From: Verrucomicrobiota bacterium
GTDB lineage: Bacteria > Verrucomicrobiota > Kiritimatiellia > UBA8416 > SLMC01
NCBI GenBank assembly: GCA_030018915.1
Contig: JASEHE010000008.1
Location: 1 to 34,383 of the forward strand
Length of the DNA stretch: 34,383 nucleotides
Direction: 5' to 3'
The notes beneath the pieces are model-generated. The model did no database searches and was not told the origin of the DNA. It saw only the letters and a list, made by a program, of their open reading frames with translations. Position numbers and translations under genes: made by a program. Numbering within the stretch: position 1 is the first letter of the stretch; each line of letters opens with the position of its first letter. Below, in pieces: positions 4,134 through 33,436 of the stretch.

Positions 4134-4855
4134 CGCTTCCTGTGCGCCAGCAGCAGCAGATGGTCCCCGAAATGGCGGTAGAACCAATGCGCGGTCTTCC
4201 GCTGGAAAGCCAAGTCCGTCGTTGCCCCATGGCGGTGCGCGCGCATGTACATGGTGTCCCAGAAGTCCACCGCGCAGCCCATCCGCTCGACGGCTCTGGC
4301 CAGCGCCGCCGGCGCCAGCGCCGTGATCATGTCGCAGTCGGGGAAGACTTCCCCGTCGAGCCGGGGCTCGAGGTGCCGGCAGACTTGCCCGCTGAGCCGG
4401 TCCAGTGCGAGCCGCGCGCCCGCCAACACGGTCTCCACCGCTCGAACGGCCCGACGCTTGTCCAGGCGCAGATCCAGCGAGAACGCCAGCGGCGCGGAAA
4501 CCAGGATGAACCCGCCGGGCCGGGTGATCCGCGCCATTTCGCGCAGGACCGCCATGGGATCCCAGACATGCTCCAGGACCTCGAACGCATAACAGCCGGC
4601 CACGTGTTCGTCTTTCATGGGGAGATTCTCGGCGCCAGCGCGCGCGAATTCGACATCCAGTCCCACGCGCGCTTCCCGAGCAATTTCGATTGCCTGCGCC
4701 GAGATATCGAATCCATGGATTCTGGCGACCCGCCCCGCCAGACTGGCCACAGTTCCTACCCCGCAGCCGACATCCGCGTAGACTTCGCCGCTCCGAATGA
4801 GAGAGAGCAGGAACTCGACTTGCGGCGCGCGGATCTCGTTTGACTGCCACCACAA
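4130..4855 (-). CDS. Class I SAM-dependent methyltransferase
   Basis: EVYADVGCGVGTVASLAG (motif I), CYAFEVLEHVWDPMAVLREMARITRPGGFILVSAP. Apparent start is TTG. Confidence 0.8.
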   Translation of the reverse strand: MWWQSNEIRAPQVEFLLSLIRSGEVYADVGCGVGTVASLAGRVARIHGFDISAQAIEIAREARVGLDVEFARAGAENLPMKDEHVAGCYAFEVLEHVWDPMAVLREMARITRPGGFILVSAPLAFSLDLRLDKRRAVRAVETVLAGARLALDRLSGQVCRHLEPRLDGEVFPDCDMITALAPAALARAVERMGCAVDFWDTMYMRAHRHGATTDLAFQRKTAHWFYRHFGDHLLLLAHRKR

Positions 4856-6227
4856 CCAGCGACAGGCCGGGCCACGGAATCAACCGATCCGCCAGGCGAA
4901 AGAGAGGAACCAGCATGTCAAAACACTTGAGTTGCCAGCGCCCCAGCGTCTTGCGCCTCAGGACGCGGGAATTCAGGAACCATCCGATGACGCCCGCCTT
5001 GTTCAGAGTGAGCCTCGATTCGACCTGGAACCCGGCGTCCTCCAGTTCTCCACGGAAGATGTCCTTGTTGTATCTGCGAAAATGCCCGATCGCCTTGTCC
5101 ACGGACCCGAACAGTGACGGCAAGTTGGGCACAACGAACACCGCGCGCCCCCCGGGTTTCAGAACGGCCAGGATATTCTTCAAGCATGCCGTCTGGGCTT
5201 CGGTGTGCTCCAGAACATTCGAACACAAGACTGAGTCAACCATGGAAATCTCCGGCGGCGGAAGGGTCACATCCCATTCCACCACTTGAATCCTCCGCCG
5301 GCCTATGAAAGCATTTCGGAGTACACGGAGGTATTCGGGGTCCGACTCGGCGGCAATGACCCGGCCGGTCCCCATCAGCGCCCTCACGTTGTTCCCGATC
5401 CCGGCGCCCACTTCCAGAATGATTCCTTTCATGTGCGGCCGAACCACGTCCATCAGCCATTCCGTGAAGCGTGACGCCTGTTCCATGCTTCGAAGAGTGA
5501 TCTCGCCGTAGCTGCCATCGTACAGGTCGTCAATGAAGAAGTACTTCAGAATGACCCATCCGGTCTGCACCGCGTCCCATGCGCCAATCTTCTTGCCTTC
5601 GGAATAAGTCCGCCCGTTGTAGTTGACGGCGGTTTCAAATATCCTAAGTTTCCGTTTCGCGATCTTGGCCGTGATCTCCGGTTCGAAGCCAAACCGGTCG
5701 GAACGGATCGGTATGGTCTTGAGCACGCTCATGCGGAAGGCCTTGTAGCCGGTTTCAATGTCAGTCAGGTTCAAGTCGGTCAACATGTTCGAAAACGTCG
5801 TCAGGAACCTGTTGGCGACACCGTGCCAGAAAAAGAACACGCGCCGGTACTGTGCCGAGGCGAAGCGGGACCCATAAACCACGTCGGCTTCATTCTCTAT
5901 AAGCGGCGTCAGAAGGCGCTCGTAGTCGCGGGGATCGTACTCCAGGTCGGCGTCCTGAATGATGGCATAGTCCCCGCCAGCCGCCCGGATTGCCGTGCGA
6001 ACCGCTGCTCCTTTGCCGAGGTTTGCCGGGTGGCGCAGCGCGCGTATTCGCGGATCTTTCCGGGAACAGGCTTCCAGGATTTCCAGGGAGCCGTCCGACG
6101 ACCCGTCGTCAACCGCAATGATTTCCCGGTCCATGCCTTCCGGCAGTGGCGCGGCCAGCGCCCGATCGAGTATGTCCTCAATCGTGGAGGCTTCGTCGTA
6201 CACAGGCATGAGGATGGATAGTTTCAT
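4836..6227 (-). CDS. Bifunctional glycosyltransferase family 2 / class I SAM methyltransferase
   Basis: MKLSILMPVYDEASTIEDIL...IIAVDDGSSDGS...YAIIQDADLEYDP (DPM1-like), then ILEVGAGIGNNVRALM...SVLCSNVLEHTE...LKPGGRAVFVVPN. Family homology ends near LSLVVVAVKR; the ORF has no stop there. Confidence 0.85.
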
Positions 6228-7072: not shown

Positions 7073-8878
7073 TTACTTCTTTCTGATGACAAACTCGTTC
7101 ACGCCTTCCGGGACGCGGCAGCGCATGAACGGCACCGGGTCGTCCAGGACGCGCTCGGGCTCCAGGTTGACTCCTCGATCCGCAGCCAGCCAGGACGCAT
7201 AGTGCAGTTTCAGGACCAGGATATTCGTCTGGACCTGGCTGACGTCAATGCGGTCGTAGTCGGCCCGCACAACGGCCTTTCCGGAAAGTACAAGCGACGG
7301 CTCGGCGCCGAGCACGCGAAACAGGTTGTACCCCGCGCTTTCCTTCTCCAGCACGAAGAGCGCCTCGTTCCTGCGGGCCAGCTCTTTCCATTCCGAGCGG
7401 GCGAACAGAGCGTATTCGACGGCATAGTGACGAAAGTACAGGGCAAGATCACTGCCTGTCCAACGTCCGACCTCGCGGCCAAACAGCCGATCGTCCCACA
7501 TGGAGGCAAAACCGTGCTTCACGAACGCCGCCTGCCCCAGTCCGCCGATCACGGGTTTGCCGGTGAAATAGGGGGTCACCCGGCCCAACTGCACATCGTC
7601 GCAGAGGATACGTCCCTGCAGAGGCAGACGGTCAATCATCCGGAGTGCTTCCCATCGCGCGCCGCTCAACTCGGTCCCGCCCCTCCGTCCGGCCCGGTCC
7701 AGCAAGTAGCCCGCGAACTCAGGGAGAAGGATCAGCGCCACCAGGAGCGCGGCGACGCGGATCCGCCACGACGATTCCTTGACCACGCGCGCGATCCACA
7801 CCAGACACTCGGTCATCGGCGCCAGTAGCAGCACGGCGCCGGGCAGCACAAAACGGTAGGGCTGCAGCGCGGCCAGAGGCCCAAGGGAGGAACCGCTGTA
7901 GGCGAAGACCAGGCAGGCCAAGCCGCCGACGCCCATGACGGAGAGGGCCCGGTTCGCGCGCCAGCACAGAATCGAGCCGCCCACCCCCAGAACGACAGCC
8001 ACATGGTACAGGAATGTCCGGTCAAACGGGTGGCGGTAGACGCGGTCTGAGAAGACATCCATAACCAGATTTCTCCAATTGCTCTCGAAAAACTTCTCGG
8101 GCCGGGGCACACAGTCCCCGAGGTTGCGCAGCAGAGGAATCAGCCACCAGGCGGCGACGGCAACAAAGACGGCGGCCGCTGTCCCCATCGCCAGCCAATA
8201 GCCAGGACACGCGGATCGCTTGCCATTCAAGACAGCCGCCGCCGCAACCGGCACGAGACCGGCAACGAACGCCGCCGGGTGCGTGTAGAAGATCAGGCCG
8301 GCCACCAGGCCCGCTGCGGGAGCGAGCAGCGCCCAGGATCTGCCCGACAAGGCATTCCAGACACTGGCGACCAGCACCGGGACAAGGCAGGCTGCAGCCG
8401 GGAAGAAGACGTTGCCAAAGCCCCAGAAATAGGCGATCTGCGTATCCAAATGCCAGTAGAGGAGCAACACGAGGAGCAGAAGTGTCCAGCGTCGCCTGTC
8501 GGGGAACAGGGGCCTGAGTCCGAACCAGGCGACCAGGGGAGCGAGCAGGGCTACGCCCGTGATCGTCAGATAGAACAGGGCAGGCAGAGGGATGAATGGC
8601 GCCAGGCTGTGGATCACGCTGTAGGCCTTGTTGCCCACGCTGTTCCACAAGCCAACAGGGTAGCCCGCCATGAAGCAGGGATCATACCCAAATACTCCTT
8701 GGACTTGCGATCCTCCGTGGGCGGTCGCGAAGTAGTGCCACACGTCGCCGCGAAGAGGGATTTCTCCCCGGAGAAGGAGCGAGGGCGGATACTCGCGCAG
8801 GACAAGCGCGATGTGCGCGAGCATGACGCATGCAACAAGCAAGGCGCCGCGTGAGAATCGATTGAGGATTGCCTTCAT
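7073..8878 (-). CDS. Large multi-pass integral membrane protein (601 aa)
   Basis: Many hydrophobic segments (ALFYLTITGVALLAPLVAWFG, WTLLLLVLLLYWHL, AAAVFVAVAAWWLIPLL) with a soluble C-terminal part. Confidence 0.75.
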   Translation of the reverse strand: MKAILNRFSRGALLVACVMLAHIALVLREYPPSLLLRGEIPLRGDVWHYFATAHGGSQVQGVFGYDPCFMAGYPVGLWNSVGNKAYSVIHSLAPFIPLPALFYLTITGVALLAPLVAWFGLRPLFPDRRRWTLLLLVLLLYWHLDTQIAYFWGFGNVFFPAAACLVPVLVASVWNALSGRSWALLAPAAGLVAGLIFYTHPAAFVAGLVPVAAAAVLNGKRSACPGYWLAMGTAAAVFVAVAAWWLIPLLRNLGDCVPRPEKFFESNWRNLVMDVFSDRVYRHPFDRTFLYHVAVVLGVGGSILCWRANRALSVMGVGGLACLVFAYSGSSLGPLAALQPYRFVLPGAVLLLAPMTECLVWIARVVKESSWRIRVAALLVALILLPEFAGYLLDRAGRRGGTELSGARWEALRMIDRLPLQGRILCDDVQLGRVTPYFTGKPVIGGLGQAAFVKHGFASMWDDRLFGREVGRWTGSDLALYFRHYAVEYALFARSEWKELARRNEALFVLEKESAGYNLFRVLGAEPSLVLSGKAVVRADYDRIDVSQVQTNILVLKLHYASWLAADRGVNLEPERVLDDPVPFMRCRVPEGVNEFVIRKK

Positions 8879-16042: not shown

Positions 16043-17536
16043 CTATTGCTGGGCCTGTCCTTTCTCGTTGGACCGACGCGTCACCCCGATCCACCACGAG
16101 CCAATCTTGGTCAACGGGGTCAGGAACTGCCGGAGTTCTTCCTCCCCAACGACGTAGTAGACCTCGTCGTCCCAGCGCATTTCGGGGCGGTACTTTATGT
16201 GTTCGCATCGGTAGGATCGCCCCCTGAACGCGTTGTTGTAGCCTGTCGACAGGTTCACCGCGGGCTCCCAGAAGATCTCCCAATCCTTGGTGACACAGAT
16301 TACGCCGGTCACGCCCCTTTCCTGAAAGAAGGCGTCGAACGCCTGCGACACCTTCGCATCCCTGCTATTCCGTTGCGCCTCCGCGACAAGGAAGCGACGC
16401 ATGGGGCGATGCGCAGGAAAGAGCGCCAGTTGAACAACCGCTGCGGCCAGACCAGCGACGAGAAGAGTAGGGCGAATCCATTTCCCATGCCGGTCCCAGG
16501 TCTCCCATAGGTAGTCGAGGATGAGGAGCCCCGATAGTCCCATCGTGCTCACAGGCAGGAAGACATAGCGGGGGAAGAAATAGGGCCAGGCGACAAGCGA
16601 GCCAACGTAGGGGCCCGAGGTCAGGAGCAAGATGAACCCGGCCATCAGCCGCCAGTCCAAGGTCGCACCGTCCTTGAGTCGTCCGCCGATGTGAAAGGCC
16701 AGGATTGCGCTCGCCAGAACGCCCGCCAAGGCCAACGGCCAGCCCAGAGACATATCGGCGAACCGGAGCAGGCCGGACGGACCGAGACTGGGCTTCCCGA
16801 ACATCGCGCCGTAGGTCTCGCCGCTCATCTTCACGGCCATGACCAAGAGCCCCATCACAACGGCATAGACCCCGAGGGCAATCCGCCGGGATCGCCCCTG
16901 ATGGCACAGGACCAGGAACGGCGCGTAGAGAAGACAGTGCTCCTTGGCGCCCAGGAAGAGAATGGACAGGGCAAGAGCGGCCCAGGAACGCCGGTCGAGC
17001 AGCAGGATCCCCAGGCTGATCAGCAGAAAGAAGAAGGAGTATCCTTCCTGAGGGCTTAGGCGGCCAAACACGTCGACCCCCAGACGCCTAGCGCGGATGA
17101 GCATGAATGTGAGGAGAATGCCAAGCAGGATGCCTTCGGATCGCCGCCGAGCCCCGACATACGCCAGAAACAGAAAAGGCACAAGATACAGGGCGATGCG
17201 CTCGGCATGATGCCATGCCGAGCGCCTTGGCAGAAAGACGTTCTCCAGACTCCGGACCAGCCAGAAAGACGGACGTACCCGGCCGCACTCCAGGAAATCC
17301 CTGCCAATGGCGGACACCGGGTTCCGCACTGCCTGAAGATCGTACGGATCGTCAATAATGGAGAAATGGTCGACCCCTGAAGCGGCGGGCAGCGCAGGCA
17401 ACAGATTGCCTCCGAAATAAACAAGTGAGAACGAGAGGAGAAGCCCGACCAGCAATGGCCTTTGTTCGCGGAACCGGCGGGGAGACTGTCGCACTCCCCC
17501 CACCCCGACTTCCTCGGAAACAATCTTTGTAGTCAT
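16043..17536 (-). CDS. Multi-pass integral membrane protein
   Basis: LLVGLLLSFSLVYFGGNLLPALP...ALALSILFLGAKEHCLLYAPFLVL...WPLALAGVLASAILAF. Likely start MTTKIVSEE. Confidence 0.75.
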   Translation of the reverse strand: MTTKIVSEEVGVGGVRQSPRRFREQRPLLVGLLLSFSLVYFGGNLLPALPAASGVDHFSIIDDPYDLQAVRNPVSAIGRDFLECGRVRPSFWLVRSLENVFLPRRSAWHHAERIALYLVPFLFLAYVGARRRSEGILLGILLTFMLIRARRLGVDVFGRLSPQEGYSFFFLLISLGILLLDRRSWAALALSILFLGAKEHCLLYAPFLVLCHQGRSRRIALGVYAVVMGLLVMAVKMSGETYGAMFGKPSLGPSGLLRFADMSLGWPLALAGVLASAILAFHIGGRLKDGATLDWRLMAGFILLLTSGPYVGSLVAWPYFFPRYVFLPVSTMGLSGLLILDYLWETWDRHGKWIRPTLLVAGLAAAVVQLALFPAHRPMRRFLVAEAQRNSRDAKVSQAFDAFFQERGVTGVICVTKDWEIFWEPAVNLSTGYNNAFRGRSYRCEHIKYRPEMRWDDEVYYVVGEEELRQFLTPLTKIGSWWIGVTRRSNEKGQAQQ

Positions 17537-17564
17537 GACGGAAATGCGGGAGGCGCCGGAATCG

Positions 17565-17753
17565 TCAACTGCCCCGCGCGGCGAGTTCGTGGCAGGCACG
17601 CGCGAAACCACTCGCCGCAGCATCCCAAGTGAACCTGCGCGCTTGCGCCTCCCTTTTCGCCACCGCATCCCGACGCCTACCGACCGCGAGCGCTGCCTCC
17701 AATGCAGCGCCAAACTCGGCATGGGAGTCGGGGTCAAAGTAGTGCGTCGCCAT
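17565..17753 (-). pseudogene. C-terminal fragment of a GT4 glycosyltransferase
   Basis: ATHYFDPDSHAEFGAALEAALAVGRRRDAVAKREAQARRFTWDAAASGFARACHELAARGS aligns by eye with YYFDPRSPGEFRLALERAI...FSWDGTAQGFAQACREIGGA of the 19055-20182 GT4. Confidence 0.75.
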
Positions 17754-17913
17754 ACTCTAGATATGAATCTTCGCAAGCCCAAATCGGGCCGGCAATCCAT
17801 GGCGGCGTCATCCGCGATTCCGGCCCATCGGCCGGCAACGGCCGGGCGTTCCGACGGGGCAGGCAGATGAATCGAACAACTACGCCGTCAACTTTGTCGC
17901 GCCTCGCCGTCTC

Positions 17914-18354
17914 TCAATTGCCCAGTTCGGGGGAGAGATAGGCGCCGATCCGCGAAACGTATTTCTCGAAATCGCCGAGCCTGGACTGAAGGATGCCCCA
18001 GATCTCCTTGGCATCGAGGTCCCAATAGCGATGAACCAGACGATTCCGGAAGCGCGCCATCTTGCCGAGTTCCACGGCAAACTCCGGGTCCAGAATTCCG
18101 GATTCCCCCAGCACCTTGAACGTATCGGCATAGTCTTCCGGACACCGAAACCCTTTCCTCGAAATCACGTGGTTTGCTATGTCAATGGAGGCCTCAATGC
18201 CCGCGATGAAACTGTACTTGGCGCTGCCCTGTTTGTGTACATCCCTGATAAACTCCCCCTCCGGCAGTCGCGCCAGTTCACCGAGAATGCTCAGCGACTC
18301 CCGAATCGAGCCGATCAGTTTCTCGATTCGTTCGTTGTCGATCGATTTGCTCAT
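17914..18354 (-). CDS. hepT: HepT-like HEPN RNase (DUF86)
   Basis: KMARFRNRLVHRYWDLD contains the R-X4-H-X-Y motif; adjacent to a nucleotidyltransferase. Confidence 0.85.
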   Translation of the reverse strand: MSKSIDNERIEKLIGSIRESLSILGELARLPEGEFIRDVHKQGSAKYSFIAGIEASIDIANHVISRKGFRCPEDYADTFKVLGESGILDPEFAVELGKMARFRNRLVHRYWDLDAKEIWGILQSRLGDFEKYVSRIGAYLSPELGN

Positions 18355-18761
18355 GCCACGACCTCTCGGAGATACTCCTGCCGTCTCGGACGGAAATCGA
18401 AGTACTCGACCCGCGTCAACGATTCGAACTCGGCCCGGGCGTCGGGATCGCCGTCCAGAACAAGCACGCCGGAAGAAACGACCCGATATCGAAAACTCAA
18501 CGGCGCGTCGTTCAGCACATGGACATCCACTTTGTGCCCGATCAATGCCTCCAGATCCATCTCCAGAGGGATCGCAAAGCCCAGGAGCAATCTTCCCTGG
18601 CCGGCAAGCCGGTCATAGACCGCCGGCTCGATGAACAACGCGATGTCAATATCCCGAAAGATTCCCGGCCTCAGAGCGGATCCGTGGAGATAGGCAAAAA
18701 GTATCTCGCGACACCGGGACAGTCCGGGTTGAATACCACGAACAAGTTCTTCCCGAATCAT
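18351..18761 (-). CDS. mntA: MntA-like nucleotidyltransferase antitoxin
   Basis: YLHGSALRPGIFRDIDIALFIE nucleotidyltransferase motif; 4-bp overlap with hepT. Confidence 0.8.
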   Translation of the reverse strand: MIREELVRGIQPGLSRCREILFAYLHGSALRPGIFRDIDIALFIEPAVYDRLAGQGRLLLGFAIPLEMDLEALIGHKVDVHVLNDAPLSFRYRVVSSGVLVLDGDPDARAEFESLTRVEYFDFRPRRQEYLREVVA

Positions 18762-19054
18762 GGGGTGACCTCGATCCTCAGTATTTGACCGGAAGATAGC
18801 GAAGGGAACAAGAAAAGAATCGTCGCCAGACTGCCGGGCACTTCGCTCGCGGGGCGGAAGAGCGGAACGGAGGCGGAAAGAACTACCACGCTTGCCGTGA
18901 ACTGCCACGCGCGACAAGTTCGTGGCAGCCACGCGCGAAATGCCAGCAACAGCCGGGCGTTCAGACGGGAATCCAACGCCCGCTTGCTGCCGGGGCGTTC
19001 TCCGCCCGAAGAAGCCCTCTTCGTCCAGCGTCGGCGCGCAGAACGCCGAGCGAG

Positions 19055-20182
19055 TCATGCGCCACCGATTTCCCGGCAGGCTTGAGCGAACCCTTGCGCA
19101 GTCCCGTCCCAAGAGAATAGCGCCGCTTGATTCCTTCGCCGCTCCACCAGGTCTTGGCGCCGACCATCGGATATAGCCCTTTCGAGGGCGAGCCGAAATT
19201 CCCCGGGCGATCGAGGATCGAAATAGTACGCGGCATCCCCAGCAACCTCGGGCAGTGACGCAGCCATGGAACAAACCACGGGACTCCCCATGCTCAACGC
19301 TTCTGCCACAGGTATGCCGAACCCCTCATAAAGAGAAGGATGGACCAGGGCCGAACACGTAGCATACAGGTTCGCCAGTTCCGTATCCGTCGGACTTGTG
19401 AGGAATCTCACCCGTCGAGGGATAAGCTGGTCCCAGAGCCTGATGTCACACTGCTCCAGCCGTCTTGCCCCGGCAACAACGAGATCATACTCCGAGAACT
19501 GGCTGAACCCACGGCTCCCCAGACATCTTGCGACAAACGAAAAGTTCTTGTACGCAGTCCGCCAGTCCCCCACATACAGCAAAAACGGCTTGGTTGGAGC
19601 ACCGTGCCCGGCGCCGTTCCTGACCGCGCCGCGCAACCGCTCTGAAAATCCGGCGGGATAGACTACACGGCATTTCCCTTCGGGAACCTTGAGTAGGCGG
19701 ATCACGTCGCGCCGGGTATTCTCTGAGATGCAGAGGATCACGCTCGCACGCCCAAGGGCAATCGCCTTTTTCCGGGTGATCTCCTTGCGTTCAGACACGG
19801 CAAAATCGGCCGGAAACAGTTCATGAATCATGTCATGGGCGACACAGAAACTGGGGCATCGCACCGGCGGGTGACTGTAGTATGTGGGGTGGAACACGTC
19901 CGCTGAACGGGTCCGCCAGTAAGCACTCGCGATCCAGCCATCGCATATCCCCGAGACCGCGCGCCAAAGCCGCCAGGGCCGAAAGCGAGGGACGGCAGGC
20001 ACTCTCTTGACCCCGGGAATCCAGGCATGCAGTTGGTTTAATGGGCCTGACGACCGCATCAGGACCTGCACAGAGATGCCGTCTCCCAGGACTGCAAGCC
20101 TCGGAAGGATCTCGGAGTAGATTCGGGAAATCCCCCCTTGTCTTTGAAGGACGAAGACCTCGCCATCGATAAGAAGCCGCAT
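19055..20182 (-). CDS. Glycosyltransferase family 4
   Basis: FLLYVGDWRTAYKNFSFVARCLG...VRFLTSPTDTELANLYATCSALVHPSLYEGFGIPVAEALSMGSPVVCSMAASLPEVAGDAAYYFDP. Confidence 0.92.
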   Translation of the reverse strand: MRLLIDGEVFVLQRQGGISRIYSEILPRLAVLGDGISVQVLMRSSGPLNQLHAWIPGVKRVPAVPRFRPWRLWRAVSGICDGWIASAYWRTRSADVFHPTYYSHPPVRCPSFCVAHDMIHELFPADFAVSERKEITRKKAIALGRASVILCISENTRRDVIRLLKVPEGKCRVVYPAGFSERLRGAVRNGAGHGAPTKPFLLYVGDWRTAYKNFSFVARCLGSRGFSQFSEYDLVVAGARRLEQCDIRLWDQLIPRRVRFLTSPTDTELANLYATCSALVHPSLYEGFGIPVAEALSMGSPVVCSMAASLPEVAGDAAYYFDPRSPGEFRLALERAISDGRRQDLVERRRNQAALFSWDGTAQGFAQACREIGGA

Positions 20183-23031: not shown

Positions 23032-24252
23032 TTACTCTGTCGCCCCGGCCACATCCCTCCGAGCAATACAACGCCTGACTTCGTCGCCATGCTCGACTGC
23101 GGTCTGCAATATTCCGCAGATTCTCTCGATGTCGGTCCCTTGAATACTAGTCCCGGTCGGGAGGGTCAGGACCCGCTCGCAGAGACGCTCCGTGTGCGGC
23201 AATTGTCTGCCGACACCAGGGAGGATGGAGCGATACGGCTTCGTCCGGTGGCAACCGGGGTAGAAGTAGCGGCGGGCAAACACATTCTCGGCGTGCAACA
23301 CCTGCAGGAGATCATCCCGCGCCAGACGAGTCTGGTCATCATCCACTTCTATGACCACATACTGATAGTTGCAGCGTTCCTGCTCATTGTAAGCGATGCA
23401 CCGCAGGCCCGGTATATGGCCCAAGCATTGCTGATACGCGCGGTAATTGAGACGGTTTGCGTCAACAAACTCATCCATCTGCTCCAGTTCGGTCAATCCC
23501 ATGGCCGCTGAAACCTCCGACATCTTGCCGTTGGTGCCGATGTCGATCACGGTATCGTAGCCAGCGAACCCGAAATTCTTCATCAAGCGAACCCTGGCAG
23601 CCAAATCGTCGTCATTGGTTGTAACGGCGCCGCCCTCGAACGCATTGAGGAACTTGGTGGCGTGAAAACTGAAGACTTCTGCTGCGCCGAAGTTGCCAAT
23701 CATCCGACCATTGCGCGAACAGGCAAAACCGTGAGCAGCATCGAAAAGGAGCTTCAGGCCGCGACGTTGGGCAATCTCGCTCAATTCCTCGATTGCGCAG
23801 GGGCGTCCCCAGACATGGACGCCGACGATGGCCGTGGTGCGAGGCGTGATCAGCGCTTCCACCTTGGCCGGATCGAGGTTGTGAGTGGCGGGATCCACAT
23901 CGCAGAATACCGGCGCGATGCCCTGCCAAAGCAACGCATGGGCTGTGGCAATAAAGGTAAAGGAGGGGACTATCACCTCCTCCCGCAAACCCAAGGCGCG
24001 CGCGGTGATTTCCATCGCCACGGTGGCATTGCACATGGCGATGCAGTGCTTGACGCCAAGGAAGGCGCCAATGCGTCGTTCGAATTCTTGAACATACTGG
24101 CCGTTGTTCGTCAACCAGCGACGGTCCAACATGTCGTTGAGCCGTCGGAGCAGAGCGTCACGATTCCCAACATTGGGACAGCCCACGTGGCGGGGTTCGC
24201 GGAACGCCGGTTGTCCCCCGGCAATAGCAAGGTCGTCAACCGCTCCAGACAC
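23032..24252 (-). CDS. DegT/DnrJ/EryC1/StrS-family sugar aminotransferase
   Basis: EVIVPSFTFIATAHALLWQGIAPVFCDVDP...LLFDAAHGFACSRNG...FSFHATKFLNAFEGGAVTTND (PLP lysine region). Confidence 0.92.
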   Translation of the reverse strand: MSGAVDDLAIAGGQPAFREPRHVGCPNVGNRDALLRRLNDMLDRRWLTNNGQYVQEFERRIGAFLGVKHCIAMCNATVAMEITARALGLREEVIVPSFTFIATAHALLWQGIAPVFCDVDPATHNLDPAKVEALITPRTTAIVGVHVWGRPCAIEELSEIAQRRGLKLLFDAAHGFACSRNGRMIGNFGAAEVFSFHATKFLNAFEGGAVTTNDDDLAARVRLMKNFGFAGYDTVIDIGTNGKMSEVSAAMGLTELEQMDEFVDANRLNYRAYQQCLGHIPGLRCIAYNEQERCNYQYVVIEVDDDQTRLARDDLLQVLHAENVFARRYFYPGCHRTKPYRSILPGVGRQLPHTERLCERVLTLPTGTSIQGTDIERICGILQTAVEHGDEVRRCIARRDVAGATE

Positions 24253-24509
24253 AAACCCTTCCCTGTCCCGCCAAGTGCCAGCCTGGTTTCCGTCTCTTGA
24301 ACGCTTGCCCTGGCACGCCTACCACGGTGCTGTTGGGCGGCACGTGCTCGACAATCATGCTCCCCGCCCCGACTATGGACCACTCACACCACTTCAATCG
24401 TTCGCTCATGTTAGGGCCAGTCCCGACAAACCTGGTTGCAGACATCACAGACGTCCTGCACCTCTCTGGCGAATCCCCCGGCCCAAATGATGACTATCTT
24501 CTTTGTCAT
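24236..24509 (-). pseudogene. Internally deleted NeuD/PglD-like acyltransferase remnant
   Basis: From the ATG at 24509: MTKKIVIIWAGGFAREVQDVCDVCNQ (PglD-N-like); in another frame downstream ...WSIVGAGSMIVEHVPPNSTVVGVPGQAFKRR (left-handed beta-helix C-terminal end). Confidence 0.8.
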
Positions 24510-24603
24510 TTGAGAGTGATAGCCAGCCACGCCGCAGCCCACCGGTCGCAGTGACTATTGGCCGCTACCCTCTCGATAGCCGAAGCTATCGCCGTCACGC
24601 CAG

Positions 24604-26952
24604 CTAAAGAATCAGTCCTCTTACCAGCCGGCTTTCGTCAAGCCCCAGCGCCCGAAACGCCCCGCAGATGGCGGGAAAAGCTTGGACGGCTGCAATGACA
24701 ACAGGAATGCCGGATTCAAGAAGGGCTGCCGGCGAGAGGATATTGTGCCCGAGAAACCGTCCGCCAATCTTGGATGGCGTATCGTCCACCAGGAAAGCGA
24801 TCTTAACGCGCTTGAAGAAGGCTGACCTTTCTATCAAGTGCTTGGCCTGCCACCCCGCTCCCCATATTGCCACAGCCTCGCAGTCGGCCGGATTCGCCCA
24901 AGCATGGGTGAGGTTCAACTCAGCAAGCTTCGATTCAATGACCCGTCCCTCGTCCTCCCGGATCTCCCAAAGCCTTGCCCTGGCCAGATCGTCAAGATAT
25001 ACAACGCGGAATCCGGCGTCGCATGCCAGCCCGTAGAGGACGATCATGGCCGTCACCACATCGACAGGAACGGTTTCCTTCTTGAAGTCATAGCTGATCT
25101 GGATATTGCACCCGGCCAGGCGCCGGCGACGCAGGAGTGCCCCAAAAGCCATGACCTCATCCAACGAACTGTTCGCCTCGATGAATACATACTTGATCGT
25201 CACCTGGCCGGCGTTTGCCGCGGCGTATCGTTCCAAGTTAGCCAAGCAGTCCGTCAATCGCCGTCGGCCGTGCACCCGTGCATAGGTGTCTTCAGTGCCT
25301 GCATCAAGGCTGGTAACCACTGATCCGCGGCCTTCGCACAGCAGTTGATGCACAGTCTCGGAGAATACGACTGCATTCGTAAACACCCTTTGGTGGGCAT
25401 GTGGCAACGCGGCAGAAAGTCTCCTGACCAGATACTTGAACCGGCCGTCCAGCACCGGCTCCCCCCCTCCCAAAACCACCAGCCCGCAGTTGTCCAGAGC
25501 CTTCTCCTCCAGCAAATCGTCTATGAGCGCACCGACATCATATTGGGCGCCCACACCGCCATAGTAGACCTCGCTGCAGTATGAACACCGCAGATTGCAG
25601 ACCGAATGATACTCCAGCGACAAGTACCGGACATCCACACGTCTCACGGGGCCCCAGTCCTTGAACTCCAGAAAAGGACAGCCCTCGCACCCAGTTGGCT
25701 CCCCGCTGTTGATCCTGTCAAGCAGTCGCTGCTTTGCCTCAAGGATATTTCGGGCGACGAATTGGCCAGAACCACTGTTGTTTGTATCAAGCAGGCAGAC
25801 GTCGCCGCGCATCCGGCCGTCAACGAAGAAGCGTTTGCAGCATGCTCTGATTTGGGTGGGCGCCAGAAAGAGCGAGCCATGCAGGTCGCTGCAACTCCAA
25901 CTCTTCGTGATGACCTCGTCCATGTGCTCCTTGATGGCCTTGCCTTTCCCTGCGCAGTCCAAACGGCTGTCGCCCATCACCTTGAGAAAATGCTCCGCGA
26001 TCATCTGATACTTCGTCCTTAGCGCGCATCCGGCAAGCCCCTCGGGTTCTCTGTTGAACTCCTGATAGCCTCGATAGAGGGTTGCATAAAGCACGGCAGC
26101 TTCTTCCGCTGAGCGCGACAACCGATAGATCTCCCGGACTCTTGTGGCCAGGACACCGGTCAAGCCGGTTTGATAGAACCGCGGAAACTCTCCCAAATCA
26201 CCGTGGACGCGATCCGTCAGGGATTGTCGGATTTCTTTCCAGGCGCGCATGAAGCCGCGGATGTGCGCCTCTGAGATTGTGCCGACAATCGAGCCATCCC
26301 TCCGCCGCTTCAGATACAGGATCTCGGGAAGGTAGCGGATTCCCCGGGCATGCCAGTATACCTTGAAGAGGTAGTCGACGTCTTCGTGAAACCCCATGGC
26401 GAACCGAACCTTGTTCCGCACGATCAGCGACCTGCGTATCGCCGCATAGATCACAGATCCATCCATTCGCAGAGACAAGTAGCGCTTGATCAGCTCTCGT
26501 TTCTGCAGAGCGAACGAAGCATGATCGCGCCGCCCTGTCGCCGAGCGAGCAGGATCGTGAAGGTCAACGGAAGAGCAATGCGCCCAGTTGAAAACCACGA
26601 CATCAACGGGGGCTGCGCCGCGTGCGGCCAGGAATGCTTGCAGTGTCTCCAAGGCCTGGGGGGCAAGCCAATCATCGCTGTCCACGAACAATACCCAACG
26701 GCCGGAGGCCCTGGACAGCCCAATATTCCTGGCAATGCCAGGGCCCTGATTGCGGGCCGTCCGTGTCACGATCATGTTTCCGCGTTGACGGGCAAACCGG
26801 CTCGCGACCTCAAGCGTGGAGTCCGTGGAGCAATCGTCCACGAGTATCACCTCGAAATCCTCCGGGCTCAGACTCTGCCCGAAGACGCTTTCCAGACAGG
26901 GACCCACAAAGGCTTCCGCGTTATATGCCGGGACGACTACGGAAAACTGCAT
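24604..26952 (-). CDS. Three-domain protein: GT2 glycosyltransferase, radical SAM (CX3CX2C), C-terminal Rossmann-like domain
   Basis: FSVVVPAYNAEAFVGPCLESVFGQ...VILVDDCSTDST...WVLFVDSDDWLAPQ; EYHSVCNLRCSYCSEVYYGG with GGGEPVLD; CEAVAIWGAGWQAKHLI...IAFLVDDTPSKIGGRFLGHNILSP. Confidence 0.88.
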   Translation of the reverse strand: MQFSVVVPAYNAEAFVGPCLESVFGQSLSPEDFEVILVDDCSTDSTLEVASRFARQRGNMIVTRTARNQGPGIARNIGLSRASGRWVLFVDSDDWLAPQALETLQAFLAARGAAPVDVVVFNWAHCSSVDLHDPARSATGRRDHASFALQKRELIKRYLSLRMDGSVIYAAIRRSLIVRNKVRFAMGFHEDVDYLFKVYWHARGIRYLPEILYLKRRRDGSIVGTISEAHIRGFMRAWKEIRQSLTDRVHGDLGEFPRFYQTGLTGVLATRVREIYRLSRSAEEAAVLYATLYRGYQEFNREPEGLAGCALRTKYQMIAEHFLKVMGDSRLDCAGKGKAIKEHMDEVITKSWSCSDLHGSLFLAPTQIRACCKRFFVDGRMRGDVCLLDTNNSGSGQFVARNILEAKQRLLDRINSGEPTGCEGCPFLEFKDWGPVRRVDVRYLSLEYHSVCNLRCSYCSEVYYGGVGAQYDVGALIDDLLEEKALDNCGLVVLGGGEPVLDGRFKYLVRRLSAALPHAHQRVFTNAVVFSETVHQLLCEGRGSVVTSLDAGTEDTYARVHGRRRLTDCLANLERYAAANAGQVTIKYVFIEANSSLDEVMAFGALLRRRRLAGCNIQISYDFKKETVPVDVVTAMIVLYGLACDAGFRVVYLDDLARARLWEIREDEGRVIESKLAELNLTHAWANPADCEAVAIWGAGWQAKHLIERSAFFKRVKIAFLVDDTPSKIGGRFLGHNILSPAALLESGIPVVIAAVQAFPAICGAFRALGLDESRLVRGLIL

Positions 26953-27075
26953 GAATCCACTCCCGGGAATTCCCCCGACAAGACGGACACACATCTAAAC
27001 CCCCGGCCACACCCCCAGGCGCCCGTCAAGTTCTCACCAGGCACAAAGGATAGCCATCCCACAAGGCCTATCGTC

Positions 27076-27369
27076 TTACTTCGGAAGGCTGGCGCTCTTG
27101 GCAGCCATCTTGCTCATGATGATCGAAACAAGCCCGCCGACCGTTCTGAAGTCGGAAGATTGTATGTCGGCGTTCAGGATTTCGATATTGAACGCCGACT
27201 CTATTTCCACAAGGAACTTGGTGATCTCAATCGAGTCGACATAGCCGGAGTCAAAATAGTTGAACGTGTCCGCCTCAACACCACCCGGCAGGCGAGCCTT
27301 CCTCTCGACCAACCGCAGCACGAACGCCCTGGCGGATTCCCTTGTGCACATCCCCGGTGATGAACTCAT
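27076..27369 (-). CDS. Acyl carrier protein
   Basis: NYFDSGYVDSIEITKFLVEIESAFNIEI contains a DSI phosphopantetheine-site motif. ATGA overlap with the upstream gene. Confidence 0.85.
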   Translation of the reverse strand: MSSSPGMCTRESARAFVLRLVERKARLPGGVEADTFNYFDSGYVDSIEITKFLVEIESAFNIEILNADIQSSDFRTVGGLVSIIMSKMAAKSASLPK

Positions 27370-28520
27370 GCCTTCGGACTCCCGACAGCCTGCCACGCCC
27401 TGGACCTGAACGACGCGACCATAGCCTCAAACAACTCGATCCCCTCTGCAGCCAATTCGCAGCCAAATACCTCTTCGGACTCCCACCGACCCTTTGCCTT
27501 GTGCTGCTGCCGACAATCCGCAATATCGGAGTATAGGTTCGCAAAAGCTTCAATGAAGCCAGCTGGATGCCCCGCCTTGAAGCGACCATAGCGCGACATC
27601 GCCGCAACGTCTACTGCGGATGATGCTCGATCAACGACCTGTCGCCGTCCGTCTGCAAAACACAACAGCAAATCTTCGGGACAGCACTGCAACCATTCCG
27701 CCGAAGCTTCCGACCCGTAGATTCTCAATCTCAGTCCGTTGCGGTGCCCCAGGGCGGATTTGCTGAACCACATCTGCCCTCGAATGTCATCCGAGTACCG
27801 GCACAGACACGTCACATTGTCGATCACGTCAAACGCACCGTAGCGGGCTTGCTCCGCAACGACCTCGATAGGCCTGCTCCCTGTCAGGTAGTGAACCAGG
27901 TGGTGAAGATGTGCCGCCAGATCCAGGTAGACCATCGGAATCCGGCCATCCAGAAGTCGCCAGGCCTGAGGGGCGAGTTTGTTGCCCTGTGCGTCCACCC
28001 TGCGGAACCCCTCCTGCGGCATCTCTACCTGAAAATGCAGAATCCTTCCCAGAACTCCCTTGCGAACAAGACTCCGCAACTCGCGAACCATTGGATAGCC
28101 AGAGTAGTTGTAGGTGATCACCAAGAACCCATTTCGCGCCTTCTGAGCCTGCTGAATCTGCCGGACCTCGGCGCTGTTGCCCCCCAGGGCCTTTTCACAA
28201 ATAACCGGCATTCCCTCCATCAGACATCCCGTGACGATTTCGCAGTGTGTCGGAGTTGGCGCAAGTACGACCACAGCATCCATCTGATCTTTCTCATTCA
28301 GAATCATCTCCTGCCACCGAGGGTACACGCGGGGAGAGGGAACGCCGTAGGCACGCGCGGTCTTCACGTTCGTCTTCCATTCCCTGCTGAAGCATCCGGC
28401 GTCTAGAGACCACCGCTTGTCCATCATGCACGCACAGGAATGGGCATACCCAATGCCGGAATGGACGGATCCGCCGATGAATCCCAACGACAACCGGCCA
28501 GGCTCAAGCTCTCTCTGCAT
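27366..28520 (-). CDS. Gfo/Idh/MocA-family oxidoreductase
   Basis: LSLGFIGGSVHSGIGYAHSCAC...DAVVVLAPTPTHCEIVTGCLMEGMPVICEKALGGNSAEVRQI. Confidence 0.88.
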   Translation of the reverse strand: MQRELEPGRLSLGFIGGSVHSGIGYAHSCACMMDKRWSLDAGCFSREWKTNVKTARAYGVPSPRVYPRWQEMILNEKDQMDAVVVLAPTPTHCEIVTGCLMEGMPVICEKALGGNSAEVRQIQQAQKARNGFLVITYNYSGYPMVRELRSLVRKGVLGRILHFQVEMPQEGFRRVDAQGNKLAPQAWRLLDGRIPMVYLDLAAHLHHLVHYLTGSRPIEVVAEQARYGAFDVIDNVTCLCRYSDDIRGQMWFSKSALGHRNGLRLRIYGSEASAEWLQCCPEDLLLCFADGRRQVVDRASSAVDVAAMSRYGRFKAGHPAGFIEAFANLYSDIADCRQQHKAKGRWESEEVFGCELAAEGIELFEAMVASFRSRAWQAVGSPKA

Positions 28521-28536
28521 GATGGTCTCCTGATGT

Positions 28537-30063
28537 CTACGTCCCGGCAAAACGCGCCACGAGTGCCTGCTTCATCGTCTTGCCGATACTGTTTTTCGGC
28601 AGCTGATTCACAACGAAAACTCGTCGGGGCTGCTGGAAATCAGCCAGGGTCCGCCCACAGTGAATTCTCAATGCGCGCTGGTCAAATGAACGGGCGTCCC
28701 GGGGGACGACCGCCACGGCAACAATCTCTCCCAGGCGATCGTCCCGCAGCGGGAAGGCAGCGCATTCGGCAACCGACGAATGCTCCATCAGGGTCAATTC
28801 AACGTCTGCCGGATAGACGTTGATGCCCCCGGTAATGATGATGTCTTTCTTCCTCCCGAGGAAGTAGAGATAGCCGTCCTTGTCCAACTTGCCAAGGTCG
28901 CCGGTCCGGAAGTAACGGCCCCACATTGCATCACGTGTCATGTCGGCGCGTTTGTGGTACCCGGCGAACATCATTGGGCTGCTGCACACGATCTCCCCAG
29001 CCGCTCCCGGCTCAACAACCTGGTCGTTGTCCCCCAGTATCTTGATGTCGACCCCGGCAATAGCCTTACCAACGGATTTGGGTCGGGTCTTCGCGCCATC
29101 CGCATCTAGATCCGAGGCGATTGCGATCTCCGAGGTCCCGTAGCACTCATGGAACCGGCAGCCCAGCGCTTCGATCAGTCGTCTCTTGACCGCGCCCTCA
29201 AGCAGCGCGGATGAGGACACAATACACCGCAGGCTATCGATCGACTGAGAACCCCCGGCCGTCAACGCCTCGCTGATCTGCCGAAGCTGAGTAGACACCG
29301 CGATGGTGAAGGTCACGCGCTGGTCTCTGACACAAGACAACCATGCCGACGGAGAAAACTTGGCCATCAGAATCGATGTCCCCCGGGTCAACATTGGGAT
29401 AAGGACGAGCCGCTCCGCCAAGGAATGATACAGAGGAGTTGCCGCGAGAACCCTGTCCTCAGCAGAAACGCCGTAGAGATCCGCGGCGGCTCGAGCCCGC
29501 TCAAACTTGACTCTCTGGGTCAGAACGATCGGCTTCGGGTCCCCTGTCGCGCCTGAAGTCATGGTCAGTATGAACGGGTCATCATCCCGCGCCCCCAGAT
29601 CGGCGGCCCCGCCGCGCGGCGGGGCCTCAGGCAGACTCCCAGGGAAGCCCATGCTTGCCCGCTCCCCACCAATTTCGAGCCACACACCATCCACAAAGGA
29701 GAACTCGCCAAGGCGCGATGACGTCAAGGCTTCAAGAGCATCTGACGATCCCACCACGTGCTTCACATCCGCGGCCCTGAACGCGCGGGCGACCGCCGGC
29801 GGCGGCAGAGAGGAGTTCAGGGGCACAAGCACGACCCCCAGGCGCGCGGCTGTCAACATGAGGACGACGAATTCGACGCCATTCGGCAGCAGGACGCCAA
29901 CATGCTCTCCCCTCCTGACTCCCCGGCGAACCATCAGCAGCGAGCAGCGGCTCACCAGGTTCGCGAGTTCCTCGTAGGTCATGCTCGTGCCCTCACACCA
30001 GATGGCACGCTTTCCCGGGCTCATCCGCGCAGCCGACTGGAATGCATGGGTGATCAAGGTCAT
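28537..30063 (-). CDS. AMP-forming acyl-CoA/acyl-ACP synthetase (ANL superfamily)
   Basis: FILTMTSGATGDPKPIVLTQ, ECYGTSEIAI, YFRTGDLGKLDKDGYLYFLGRKKDIIITGGINVYPADVE, PKNSIGKTMK. Confidence 0.93.
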   Translation of the reverse strand: MTLITHAFQSAARMSPGKRAIWCEGTSMTYEELANLVSRCSLLMVRRGVRRGEHVGVLLPNGVEFVVLMLTAARLGVVLVPLNSSLPPPAVARAFRAADVKHVVGSSDALEALTSSRLGEFSFVDGVWLEIGGERASMGFPGSLPEAPPRGGAADLGARDDDPFILTMTSGATGDPKPIVLTQRVKFERARAAADLYGVSAEDRVLAATPLYHSLAERLVLIPMLTRGTSILMAKFSPSAWLSCVRDQRVTFTIAVSTQLRQISEALTAGGSQSIDSLRCIVSSSALLEGAVKRRLIEALGCRFHECYGTSEIAIASDLDADGAKTRPKSVGKAIAGVDIKILGDNDQVVEPGAAGEIVCSSPMMFAGYHKRADMTRDAMWGRYFRTGDLGKLDKDGYLYFLGRKKDIIITGGINVYPADVELTLMEHSSVAECAAFPLRDDRLGEIVAVAVVPRDARSFDQRALRIHCGRTLADFQQPRRVFVVNQLPKNSIGKTMKQALVARFAGT

Positions 30064-30106: not shown

Positions 30107-30781
30107 TCAGGGCGACAAGCGACCGAACTTCAGGAACGACTTGCTATCCAACCGAAACGGTTGGCCGGGTTCTGAAAGATAGACCTCATTGTCCCTCGTG
30201 TTCCTGTTGACGAGAGTGTTGGCGGCAAGGAAGTTGCGGGCGCCGAGACGGACCCCTTGCCCCAGACAGGAATTGACGCCGAAGAAGCAACCAGGTCCCA
30301 CCTGACAGCCACCCGCAATCGACACGCCTGCGTTGATCCAGTTCCACGGGCCGATGGTGCAGTCATGGCCAATGTTCACGTTGCCGCAAACGAATGTTCC
30401 CTGGCCGATTTGACTCCCCGGATGAATCGATGAGTGTTCGAGAATGATGCAGTTGTCTTCGATGACGACATCGTCATGGGCACACACGGATTCGTGGACA
30501 AAGCGGGCGAAGGAGTAGCCCTTCCCGTACGCCTCCATGCACTTCTTCTCGCGGAGTTCATTCATATCGACAAATCCCATCGCGATGAGCATTCTGTTCT
30601 CGCTTGGAGTGAAGGTCTCCTGAACCGTGCTGAACGGCACAAGAGGGAGCCCACAGAACGTGGATGCGCCCTCCGCGATGCGCGAATCGTCCACGGTGAA
30701 CCCGCGGACCTCCATGGTGTGCCGCGCGTAGGAATAGACAACTCTTGCCATAGCGCCGTTTCCATAGATGACAGTGCTCAT
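30107..30781 (-). CDS. NeuD/PglD-like sugar acyltransferase (left-handed beta-helix)
   Basis: VIYGNGAMARVVYSYA...; SSIHPGSQIGQGTFVCGNVNIGHDCTIGPWNWINAGVSIAGGCQVGPGCFFGVNS hexapeptide repeats. Confidence 0.85.
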   Translation of the reverse strand: MSTVIYGNGAMARVVYSYARHTMEVRGFTVDDSRIAEGASTFCGLPLVPFSTVQETFTPSENRMLIAMGFVDMNELREKKCMEAYGKGYSFARFVHESVCAHDDVVIEDNCIILEHSSIHPGSQIGQGTFVCGNVNIGHDCTIGPWNWINAGVSIAGGCQVGPGCFFGVNSCLGQGVRLGARNFLAANTLVNRNTRDNEVYLSEPGQPFRLDSKSFLKFGRLSP

Positions 30782-31929
30782 TGCGGTCTTGCTGAGGCAA
30801 AGAGGATAGTCTCTTGGCCGTGCACACTGAAATGATCGAAGTAGAACGAGTACCCCGCCTGTAGGCCATCCAAATACTCCGGTATGGTCAGGATGTCTTC
30901 TTCCTTGTGGTATGCCGAAATCGCAAGCCGGGGTTTGAATCGCAGCAGCGTTCTTTGGGCGCCCCGAAGCGCCTGCATCTCCGAGCCTTCAATATCCATT
31001 TTGATGAAGTCAACTCTCGACAAGTCATGCCGCGAGACGAGGTCATCAACAGACAGCGTCTTGACGGACAACGTCGCGGGGTCGCCTTGACCTGCCAGAC
31101 GGGTTCCTGGGCCTGCAGGGGCAAAGGCCACATCCTTGTCGCTCACTTCACCCATGGCTCGCTCAATCACATGAATACGTCGCCCTATTTCGGGATTCAT
31201 TTCGACGTTCTTCTTCAATACATCGAGGTTCTCAGGATCGATCTCGAAGGAGTAGACACGCCCCTTCGTGCCGGCTTGATCCGCAAAGTCAAGCGCCGTG
31301 TCCCCCCAACATGCACCCCCTTCGACAATAATGTCTTCGGGCAGCACCCGCACCGTCACACCTCCCCGCCTATAGTCGTAGGGCCGAAGTCCAAACACGT
31401 GCCGCGCGCCGCCCACGGGACTGTAGACATGAAGCTGCCGCTCCCGCCCCAAAACGCCTGTCTTCACGAGCCGCCAACGCGACCCGATCAACAACTCTTC
31501 CACCCCTCGTGCACGCCTCTGATCATCCGCGCAATCTGCCCAAAACTGGTCCGTATTCAGCCGCATCCGCGCGTGACGCGGACCAAGGATGCGAAACGTC
31601 AGGACATCCAGCAGAATGCGACGTGAATACTCATCGCCCAAGAGGAACCACAGCCGCTCATATCGTCCCCGTGCTTCGCAGATTTCCTCAAGCCGATTTG
31701 CGGCCCGCGGGATTGAGAAATGGCGGGCTGCCCAGCCTCTCTTCCCTGCCCATGCCTTGATCGTCATCTTTGTCCACGTCAGGAGCGAACTGGGCTTCGC
31801 GGGACTGCACGTCGCAAGATCCCATGTCTGCGGCACATATGCGTAGATGCATTCAAAGACACGTGACAAAAGCCGTTGCAGGAATGCGCCTCCCGACAGA
31901 TCCCCGAGTGATTCCAGATGAGCATTCAC
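30778..31929 (-). CDS. FkbM-family methyltransferase with N-terminal extension
   Basis: IIVEGGACWGDTALDFADQAGTKGRVYSFEIDPENLDVLKKNVEMNP...VDFIKMDIEGSEMQALRGAQRTL. GTGA overlap with the upstream gene. Confidence 0.88.
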   Translation of the reverse strand: MNAHLESLGDLSGGAFLQRLLSRVFECIYAYVPQTWDLATCSPAKPSSLLTWTKMTIKAWAGKRGWAARHFSIPRAANRLEEICEARGRYERLWFLLGDEYSRRILLDVLTFRILGPRHARMRLNTDQFWADCADDQRRARGVEELLIGSRWRLVKTGVLGRERQLHVYSPVGGARHVFGLRPYDYRRGGVTVRVLPEDIIVEGGACWGDTALDFADQAGTKGRVYSFEIDPENLDVLKKNVEMNPEIGRRIHVIERAMGEVSDKDVAFAPAGPGTRLAGQGDPATLSVKTLSVDDLVSRHDLSRVDFIKMDIEGSEMQALRGAQRTLLRFKPRLAISAYHKEEDILTIPEYLDGLQAGYSFYFDHFSVHGQETILFASARPQ

Positions 31930-33314
31930 TCGAGACCAGCCCCGCGTTCCGTGCACCACTCCAACCGGGGACGAACCACCCCCGGATACTTGCCGTGCCA
32001 GAAACCACGCCGATGTCCTTCCGCAACATGGAAAGTCAGGATGTCAGGGTATTGATAGAGGGTGGCCGCCCCATCTTCAACTACCTGCAGAGACACCCGA
32101 TAGGTCGAGTCGTTGAGAAGACCGGCTGGAATTCTCAGTCTTTCTCTCACTTCGCCCACGTCTCGCGCCTTGGGGACGCATCCTGTGGCGAAGGCGTGGA
32201 CGCCTTCAGATGTGCGGAAATGGGCCGTGAGGTTCAGGACGGATTCCGGCCTGCGGTTCCAAACAACGAAGAGGATATCGAACGGAGTATCCACGTTGAT
32301 AATACTGGACGCAGATCCAGTGACCGGGCTGATCCCCGCTGACAATACCCGTATGCGATCATTTCCGGGTGCCGCCTCGATGTCGTCCCATGAGCGCGCG
32401 GCGGGTGGGCCAACCGTCGCGCGAAGATAGTTCTCGATCGTCGTGCTCGCCTCCCCGTCCTCCGCAACAATCCCCGCATCGAGGCACAAGACCCGCCTGC
32501 ACAGTCCTCTCACGGCCGTCATGTTGTGGCTCACAAATAGTACGGTCCGCCCTTCTCCGGCCACACTTTCCATCTTGCCCAGACATTTCTTCTGGAATGC
32601 CGCGTCCCCCACTGCCAGGACTTCGTCTACCAGCAGGATTTCCGGGTCGAGGTGGGCGGCCACGGCGAAGGCGAGGCGGACGTACATGCCGGAGGAGTAG
32701 CGCTTGACCGGCGTGTCAATGAACTTCTCGATTTCGGCGAACGCAACGATCTCGTCGAACTTGGCCGCGATCTCCTTGCGCTTCATGCCCAGGATCGCGC
32801 CGTTGAGAAAGATGTTCTCCCGGCCGGACAATTCGGGATGAAACCCCGTTCCGACCTCCAGCAGGCTGCCCACCCGGCCCCGCAGCACGGCCCGGCCGCT
32901 CGTCGGCTCCGTGATCCGACTGAGAATCTTCAGCAGCGTGCTCTTCCCCGCCCCGTTCCGCCCGATGATCCCCAGCACCTCCCCCCGTTTGACCTTGAAC
33001 GAGACATCCTTCAGCGCCCAGATCCCGTCAGAGGAGGAATCTTGAACAGAAGATCGCAAAGACCGCCAAGTTCCGCGCGGCGCGGCTTCCGGCGCCCCGG
33101 TTTCCTGAACTCCGCGTTCTTTGCGACCTTGGTGTTCAATTCGGTCCGGCTTTCTTCCCGCGTTCCCTATCTGCCCCATCTCCTCCGCAGGATCGCGGCC
33201 GCGCAGCCGGTGCCACCAGCGCTCCGCGCTCTCCCGCAGCGTTGTCGCCCCGATCACGCCCAGCCGATACCGCTTGGAAAGCCTTTCGACCGAAATGATT
33301 ACATCATCGGACAT
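31926..33314 (-). CDS. wzt: Polysaccharide ABC transporter ATP-binding protein (Wzt-like) with C-terminal carbohydrate-binding domain and an in-frame insertion before Walker A
   Basis: VISVERLSKRYRLG...IWALKDVSFKVKRGEVLGIIGRNGAGKSTLLKILSRITEPTSGRAVLRGRVGSLLEVGTGFHPELSGRENIFLNG...YSSGMYVRLAFAVAAHLDPEILLVDEVLAVGD. Confidence 0.92.
   Translation of the reverse strand: MSDDVIISVERLSKRYRLGVIGATTLRESAERWWHRLRGRDPAEEMGQIGNAGRKPDRIEHQGRKERGVQETGAPEAAPRGTWRSLRSSVQDSSSDGIWALKDVSFKVKRGEVLGIIGRNGAGKSTLLKILSRITEPTSGRAVLRGRVGSLLEVGTGFHPELSGRENIFLNGAILGMKRKEIAAKFDEIVAFAEIEKFIDTPVKRYSSGMYVRLAFAVAAHLDPEILLVDEVLAVGDAAFQKKCLGKMESVAGEGRTVLFVSHNMTAVRGLCRRVLCLDAGIVAEDGEASTTIENYLRATVGPPAARSWDDIEAAPGNDRIRVLSAGISPVTGSASSIINVDTPFDILFVVWNRRPESVLNLTAHFRTSEGVHAFATGCVPKARDVGEVRERLRIPAGLLNDSTYRVSLQVVEDGAATLYQYPDILTFHVAEGHRRGFWHGKYPGVVRPRLEWCTERGAGLE
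33036..33150. repeat. Imperfect inverted-repeat element inserted in frame in wzt
   Basis: CTTGAACAGAAGATCGCAAAGACCGCCAAGTTCC (33041 on) is imperfectly reverse-complementary to GAACTCCGCGTTCTTTGCGACCTTGGTGTTCAAT (about 33113-33146). A direct copy of the first arm lies at about 33329-33365. Confidence 0.75.
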
Positions 33315-33436
33315 GACAATTGGAAGAAACTTGAACAGAAGATCGCAAAGACCACCAAGTTCGGCGCGCGACGCGCCGGTGTTCGCCATGCGCCCTCACC
33401 GCGATTGTGCTCGCCCCCCGGGATTCGCTACTCTTC

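Follow-up and report, generated by a model that had tools for sequence, protein, structure and literature searches.

A conserved fusion of a GT2 glycosyltransferase and a radical SAM domain in bacterial and phage glycan gene clusters

The window, the whole 34,383-nucleotide stretch of Verrucomicrobiota DNA analyzed here, encodes a protein that joins four domains, namely GT2 glycosyltransferase, Cys-rich, radical SAM, and Rossmann-like. The fusion is genuine and lies in a single frame: on the minus strand, frame 24604-26994 is uninterrupted over 796 codons. Because homologs align from the Met at 26952, we take that Met to be the right start, as the preliminary description had done, and the likely protein is 782 amino acids long. 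Residue numbers are those of the 796-residue frame. We give about an even chance to the reading that the enzyme has two activities and belongs to a mobile cassette for making and attaching an N-acylated 4-amino-4,6-dideoxyhexose (viosamine/Fuc4N type), with the radical SAM domain and a Gfo/Idh oxidoreductase altering the sugar. The features of the window are collected in Table 1.

Table 1. Parts of the fusion and its neighbors in the window
Feature	Position	Strand	Basis
GT2 - Cys-rich - radical SAM - Rossmann-like fusion, 782 aa	24604..26952	-	Met common to homologs
GT2 (GT-A) glycosyltransferase domain, residues 15-340	25975..26952	-	Pfam, conservation, Foldseek
Cys-rich domain, residues 365-455; five invariant Cys, putative auxiliary Fe-S site	25630..25902	-	
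Radical SAM core, residues 456-680; CX3CX2C at 466/470/473, GGGEP at 509-513	24955..25629	-	
Small Rossmann-like C-terminal domain, residues 700-796	24607..24897	-	Model, conservation, 3nkl match
DegT aminotransferase, nearest DesI (dTDP-4-keto-6-deoxyglucose 4-aminotransferase), 529 bits vs cut-off 650	23032..24252	-	
Acyl carrier protein, VDSIE phosphopantetheine site; open frame from 27396	27076..27366	-	
Gfo/Idh/MocA oxidoreductase; E119-K120, D210, H214 conserved; most constant partner of the fusion	27366..28550	-	
AMP-forming acyl ligase	28537..30063	-	Pfam
NeuD-type left-handed beta-helix acyltransferase	30107..30781	-	
FkbM methyltransferase, same cluster	30778..31959	-	Pfam
Wzt/TagH-type polysaccharide ABC-exporter ATPase	31926..33389	-	

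Homologs were collected in two steps. With residues 365-796 as the query, the fusion was recovered from three phage contigs, and the resulting alignment then gave five phage contigs in total plus 21 loci in named genomes. The fusion occupies a single frame in the window, in 19 of these 21 loci, and in the five phage contigs (one copy is cut at its 5' end), 25 loci altogether; such homolog counts are lower bounds, as the scans rely on short peptide patterns. The single-frame copies show about 30 to 51% identity. Hosts include Accumulibacter, Rhodocyclales, Acidobacteria, Poribacteria, Saganbacteria, Planctomycetaceae, Alphaproteobacteria, Prodigiosinella, Colwellia, Methylophaga, Pseudoalteromonas, Helicobacter, Prochlorococcus, and others. 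In an Arcobacter locus (L092), the contig end cuts within the GT2 part. We also considered whether the fusion could have arisen from a frameshift, from chimeric assembly of the contig, or from reading through two genes that are in fact separate. Apart from the odd architecture, only the Prochlorococcus locus (L087), in which the GT2 and radical SAM parts are two adjacent open reading frames (ORFs), favors such an artifact. Against it, the same single frame with its domain boundaries kept recurs in loci of unrelated organisms and phages, and because 24 independent copies carry the same fusion, we regard an artifact as refuted, with practically no chance of being right.

Within the phylum of the window, the fusion was found in 1 of 388 genomes, that of the window itself. 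This sporadic presence suggests horizontal transfer. When plasmid and phage records were searched with the C-terminal part as the query, no match was found, and plasmid matches to the full-length protein covered the GT2 part only. The preliminary description had not recognized the architecture as characterized. In the literature on radical SAM enzymes with flagellin or polysaccharide glycosylation, of which few subscription journals were covered, we likewise found no description of it, yet it is not a one-off, being a conserved and horizontally scattered family. In another genome of the phylum (G046), a relative of the Cys-rich and radical SAM part stands alone, without a GT2 domain. It is one of several radical SAM genes in a glycan cluster (L095, contig C24, 2220-13914), where a GT4-like protein also ends in a similar Rossmann-like domain.

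The preliminary description had read one ORF as GT2, radical SAM, and Rossmann-like domains, and Pfam matches, structural models, and the 24 further copies bear this out. AlphaFold modeled the whole fusion with a pLDDT of 87 and a pTM of 0.80, and residues 356-796 with 89 and 0.89; none of the listed Foldseek matches spans the entire fusion. Domain searches placed both catalytic parts above the curated Pfam cut-offs. The front half matched Glycos_transf_2 (PF00535) over residues 18-169 (E 2.1e-35, 122.6 bits vs cut-off 23.3). In the 26-sequence alignment, D105, D107, and D108 of the DxD metal site and HED 203-205 are nearly invariant. Foldseek matched this half to TarS, RmlT, and TarP, with an E value of 8.5e-18 for TarS and RmlT. 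By Pfam score, DxD site, and fold, this is a GT2 domain of the GT-A type.

Residues 464-603 matched Radical_SAM (PF04055; E 5e-11, 43.4 bits vs cut-off 29.5). The motif CNLRCSYC supplies the CX3CX2C cysteines C466, C470, and C473 and is followed by GGGEP. CX3CX2C is present in 25 of the 26 sequences, and residues 509-511 (GGG) and P513 are invariant in all of them. Together with the fold, these results place the core in the radical SAM superfamily, as had been proposed from the motif. The exception is a Siccirubricoccus copy (L084, 10001-12301) with a degenerate motif, in which C466 and C470 are lost (HSVRDLQRGYC) while the frame is still open; the neighboring NeuD and ligase genes of that locus are fragmentary. 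Foldseek matches of the back half included the radical SAM enzymes SkfB, PFL-activating enzyme, SuiB, BlsE, and DesII. BlsE and DesII (the latter at E 3.5e-5) act on sugars; SkfB, which ranks first by structure, is a peptide enzyme. In the viral library, the back half matched stand-alone phage radical SAM proteins, for example from KVP40 and phi-pp2.

Extra cysteines ahead of the core, also pointed out earlier, proved to be invariant. C368, C385, C386, C436, and C439, as well as C629, are kept in 26 of 26 sequences, and the five upstream residues are as constant as those of a putative Fe-S site would be. The Cys-rich domain had no Pfam match even at an E value of 10. Candidate families were rejected: hhalign to the SPASM alignment gave a nonsignificant 2% probability for SPASM/twitch membership (SPASM half-against-half, as a control, gave 99.8%). 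The twitch proteins of NF033640 (N_Twi_rSAM) resemble the fusion in having a Cys-bearing domain ahead of the radical SAM core, but the fusion scored 25.9 bits against their cut-off of 170, and the match was limited to the core.

The last 100 or so residues form a confidently modeled alpha/beta domain in which G712 and G714 are invariant across the 26 sequences. Part of this domain is missing in the phage versions. It matched the Rossmann domain of the solved structure 3nkl weakly (E 0.006) and no Pfam family, with no PglD_N match at an E value of 10. Thus, the Rossmann-like assignment of the preliminary description holds, while the likeness to NeuD/PglD that it also proposed is weakly supported.

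All-against-all comparison of neighboring genes over the loci identified a conserved cassette. The Gfo/Idh/MocA family is present in 21 loci, mostly less than 400 bp from the fusion and with the same conserved residues as in the window; it was not found in L080, L086, and L087. It shows modest coevolution with the fusion (Mantel r 0.34, p 0.013). DegT is present in 19 loci, and that of L088 passes the curated cut-off for dTDP-4-amino-4,6-dideoxygalactose transaminase (507 vs 375). The loci fall into two types that are clustered on the fusion tree. One has NeuD, AMP-ligase, and acyl carrier protein (ACP) genes (the window, L067-L070, L072, L074-L076, L082, and L084), and the other has a 394-amino-acid ATP-grasp protein (L073, L077-L081, L083, L085, L088, and L090-L092), so that the two sets replace one another between loci. 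The AMP-ligase/ACP/NeuD module and the ATP-grasp ligase each activate a carboxylate, and the simplest common role would therefore be acylating the amine made by DegT; an exchange of this kind is expected if both serve amine acylation. Near the fusion, L072, L077, and L081 also encode a B12-binding radical SAM protein.

The exchange bears on another substrate, which had been offered as an option in the preliminary description. The radical SAM domain could act on an ACP-carried acyl group before its attachment to the sugar, and in the window, in the phages, and in several bacteria the fusion does have ACP and AMP-ligase genes next to it. About a dozen loci, however, have the fusion with the ATP-grasp ligase instead of that module. 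Since these loci have no ACP beside the fusion, an ACP-bound substrate is disfavored, and we consider it very unlikely.

The window had been read as a glycan cluster, correctly: it lies in an ABC-transporter cluster with the Wzt-type exporter ATPase and many glycosyltransferases. Flagellin, FliD, FliA, Maf, and GT41 were absent from the window. Several other genes there deserve mention. Between the fusion and DegT, the minus strand at 24199-24603 holds remnants that resemble the two termini of a NeuD-type acyltransferase and lie in different frames (KIVIIWAGGFAREVQDV ... IVGAGSMIVEHVPPNSTVVGVPG), suggestive of a decayed second copy, and a 70-amino-acid ORF without a Pfam domain. A HepT-like ribonuclease and a Polbeta nucleotidyltransferase (MNT/HEPN toxin-antitoxin type) lie within the glycan cluster at 17914-19274 (minus strand). 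Also on the minus strand, 2337-6227 encodes a 1,296-amino-acid protein with GT2, methyltransferase, and GT4-type domains, and 7073-8878 and 16043-17800 encode proteins of 601 and 585 amino acids with no significant Pfam or NCBIfam match.

Other settings differ. Seven bacterial loci (L075, L079, L080, L083, L086, L089, and L090) have flagellin, FliD, Maf, or FliA genes in the vicinity of the fusion and by gene content look like flagellin-glycosylation islands. Phage contigs L067-L070 carry DegT, RmlB, NeuD, AMP-ligase, Gfo/Idh, ACP, the fusion, a methyltransferase, and an NGT/GT41-like protein glucosyltransferase (352 bits to NF049992, under its cut-off of 1000) in a cassette of 11 to 12 kb (L067, 1611-13209; L068, 708-12136; L069, 2-11903; L070, 1771-12972). 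PHROGs tail or endolysin genes are close by in L066, L067, L069, and L070. As the window has a Wzt-type exporter without flagellin or GT41, the same enzyme probably serves different acceptors in different genomes.

Protein glycosylation raises the alternative of a radical SAM domain that acts on the protein acceptor, changing a side chain in flagellin or in a phage protein to which the fused GT2 domain then adds the sugar. In its favor, peptide-modifying enzymes (SkfB, SuiB, and PFL-activating enzyme) are among the nearest solved structures, protein glycosylation is the setting of several loci, and the phages carry the NGT-like GT41. We nevertheless judge it unlikely, given that the window is a Wzt-type polysaccharide cluster in which no flagellin was found and that the constant neighbors are sugar-building partners, chiefly Gfo/Idh, and not one protein substrate.

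The architecture, how well it is conserved, the cassette, and its settings in the genomes are established; for the 4-amino sugar reading, we infer the identity of the sugar, the order of the steps, and the radical reaction as follows. DegT would make the 4-amino sugar, and its amine would be acylated by the AMP-ligase/ACP/NeuD module or, elsewhere, by the ATP-grasp ligase. The GT2 domain would transfer the sugar to a growing glycan, the acceptor being an exported surface glycan in the window genome, flagellin in several others, and perhaps a virion or host protein in the phages. Before or just after transfer, the radical SAM domain would take a hydrogen from the same sugar, which would be oxidized, deoxygenated, or epimerized, and the neighboring Gfo/Idh/MocA enzyme would carry out the matching NAD(P)H hydride step. 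Counting for this model are the 25 fusion loci with conserved GT2 and radical SAM motifs and confident structural models, Gfo/Idh and DegT as frequent partners (21 and 19 loci), the DesI-like DegT of the window, RmlB in the phages, the interchange of the two acylation sets, the seven flagellin-type loci, the pathway logic in common with the viosamine island described below, and the adjacent Prochlorococcus ORFs. Counting against it, the resemblance of the radical SAM core to sugar-acting enzymes is distant and its top match is SkfB, Gfo/Idh coevolves modestly and was not found in three loci, and glycan clusters of any kind commonly contain DegT and glycosyltransferases.

The cassette resembles the viosamine island of Pseudomonas syringae (vioA, vioB, acp, vioM, vioT, vioR, and vioS), which puts an N-acyl-4-amino-4,6-dideoxy sugar on flagellin (PMC3927599). 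There, a dTDP-4-N-acyl-amino sugar is made via DegT, acyltransferase, and ACP, then methylated and transferred by VioT (PMC3927599). The two share a 4-aminotransferase, an acyltransferase, ACP, a methyltransferase, and a dedicated glycosyltransferase, and DegT, hexapeptide acyltransferase, and ACP do occur together in the window. What sets the cassette apart from the island is its AMP-ligase or ATP-grasp enzyme, the additional Gfo/Idh, the fusion of a radical SAM domain to the transferase, and its further occurrence in phages and polysaccharide clusters. No KAS III or ketoacyl reductase was recognized beside the fusion; among the Pfam matches of the window neighbors, the AMP-ligase was found instead.

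In aminoglycoside pathways, AprD4 and AprD3 are a radical SAM dehydratase and an NAD(P)H reductase. The likeness is that a radical SAM enzyme and a dehydrogenase are paired on one sugar; the dehydrogenase partner is a different one, and there is no fused glycosyltransferase. Desosamine biosynthesis has an aminotransferase of the same type, DesI, beside a CX3CX2C radical SAM enzyme, DesII, which deaminates or dehydrogenates a dTDP sugar (PMC11434129). The fusion could accordingly be imagined as a DesII-like deaminase that removes the 4-amino group installed by the DesI-like aminotransferase, with Gfo/Idh reducing the 3-keto product. Of the curated families, DesI comes nearest to the window's DegT; DesII, which has the CX3CX2C motif too, is one of the Foldseek matches and also dehydrogenates TDP-quinovose (PMC11434129). 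We find deamination quite unlikely, however. The DesII family model (TIGR04426) had no match in the genome of the window even at an E value of 10, and the acylation genes of the cassette would be pointless were the amine removed. DesII also differs from the fusion in being a separate protein with a single Fe-S cluster and no fused glycosyltransferase.

Returning to a radical SAM domain that alters an acylated amino sugar, a bolder and more speculative version, which we hold only tentatively, is that the fusions may form a new class of radical-SAM glycosyltransferases. The radical domain would remodel the sugar where it is transferred, so that its final form would not have to occur as a free nucleotide sugar, and phages would use the whole cassette plus the protein glucosyltransferase to decorate their particles or the host surface.

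To our knowledge, most known examples of radical SAM enzymes that act on sugars come from antibiotic pathways. A conserved fusion with a glycosyltransferase would put radical chemistry into flagellin, surface, and phage glycosylation in several phyla. Several hosts are isolates (Prodigiosinella, Pseudoalteromonas, Colwellia, and Methylophaga), so the chemistry could be read from purified flagella by mass spectrometry. CCKRFF together with CX3CX2C would serve as a marker for predicting unusual glycans. The fusion family points to an unstudied route by which flagella, cell surfaces, or virus particles may acquire unusual sugars.
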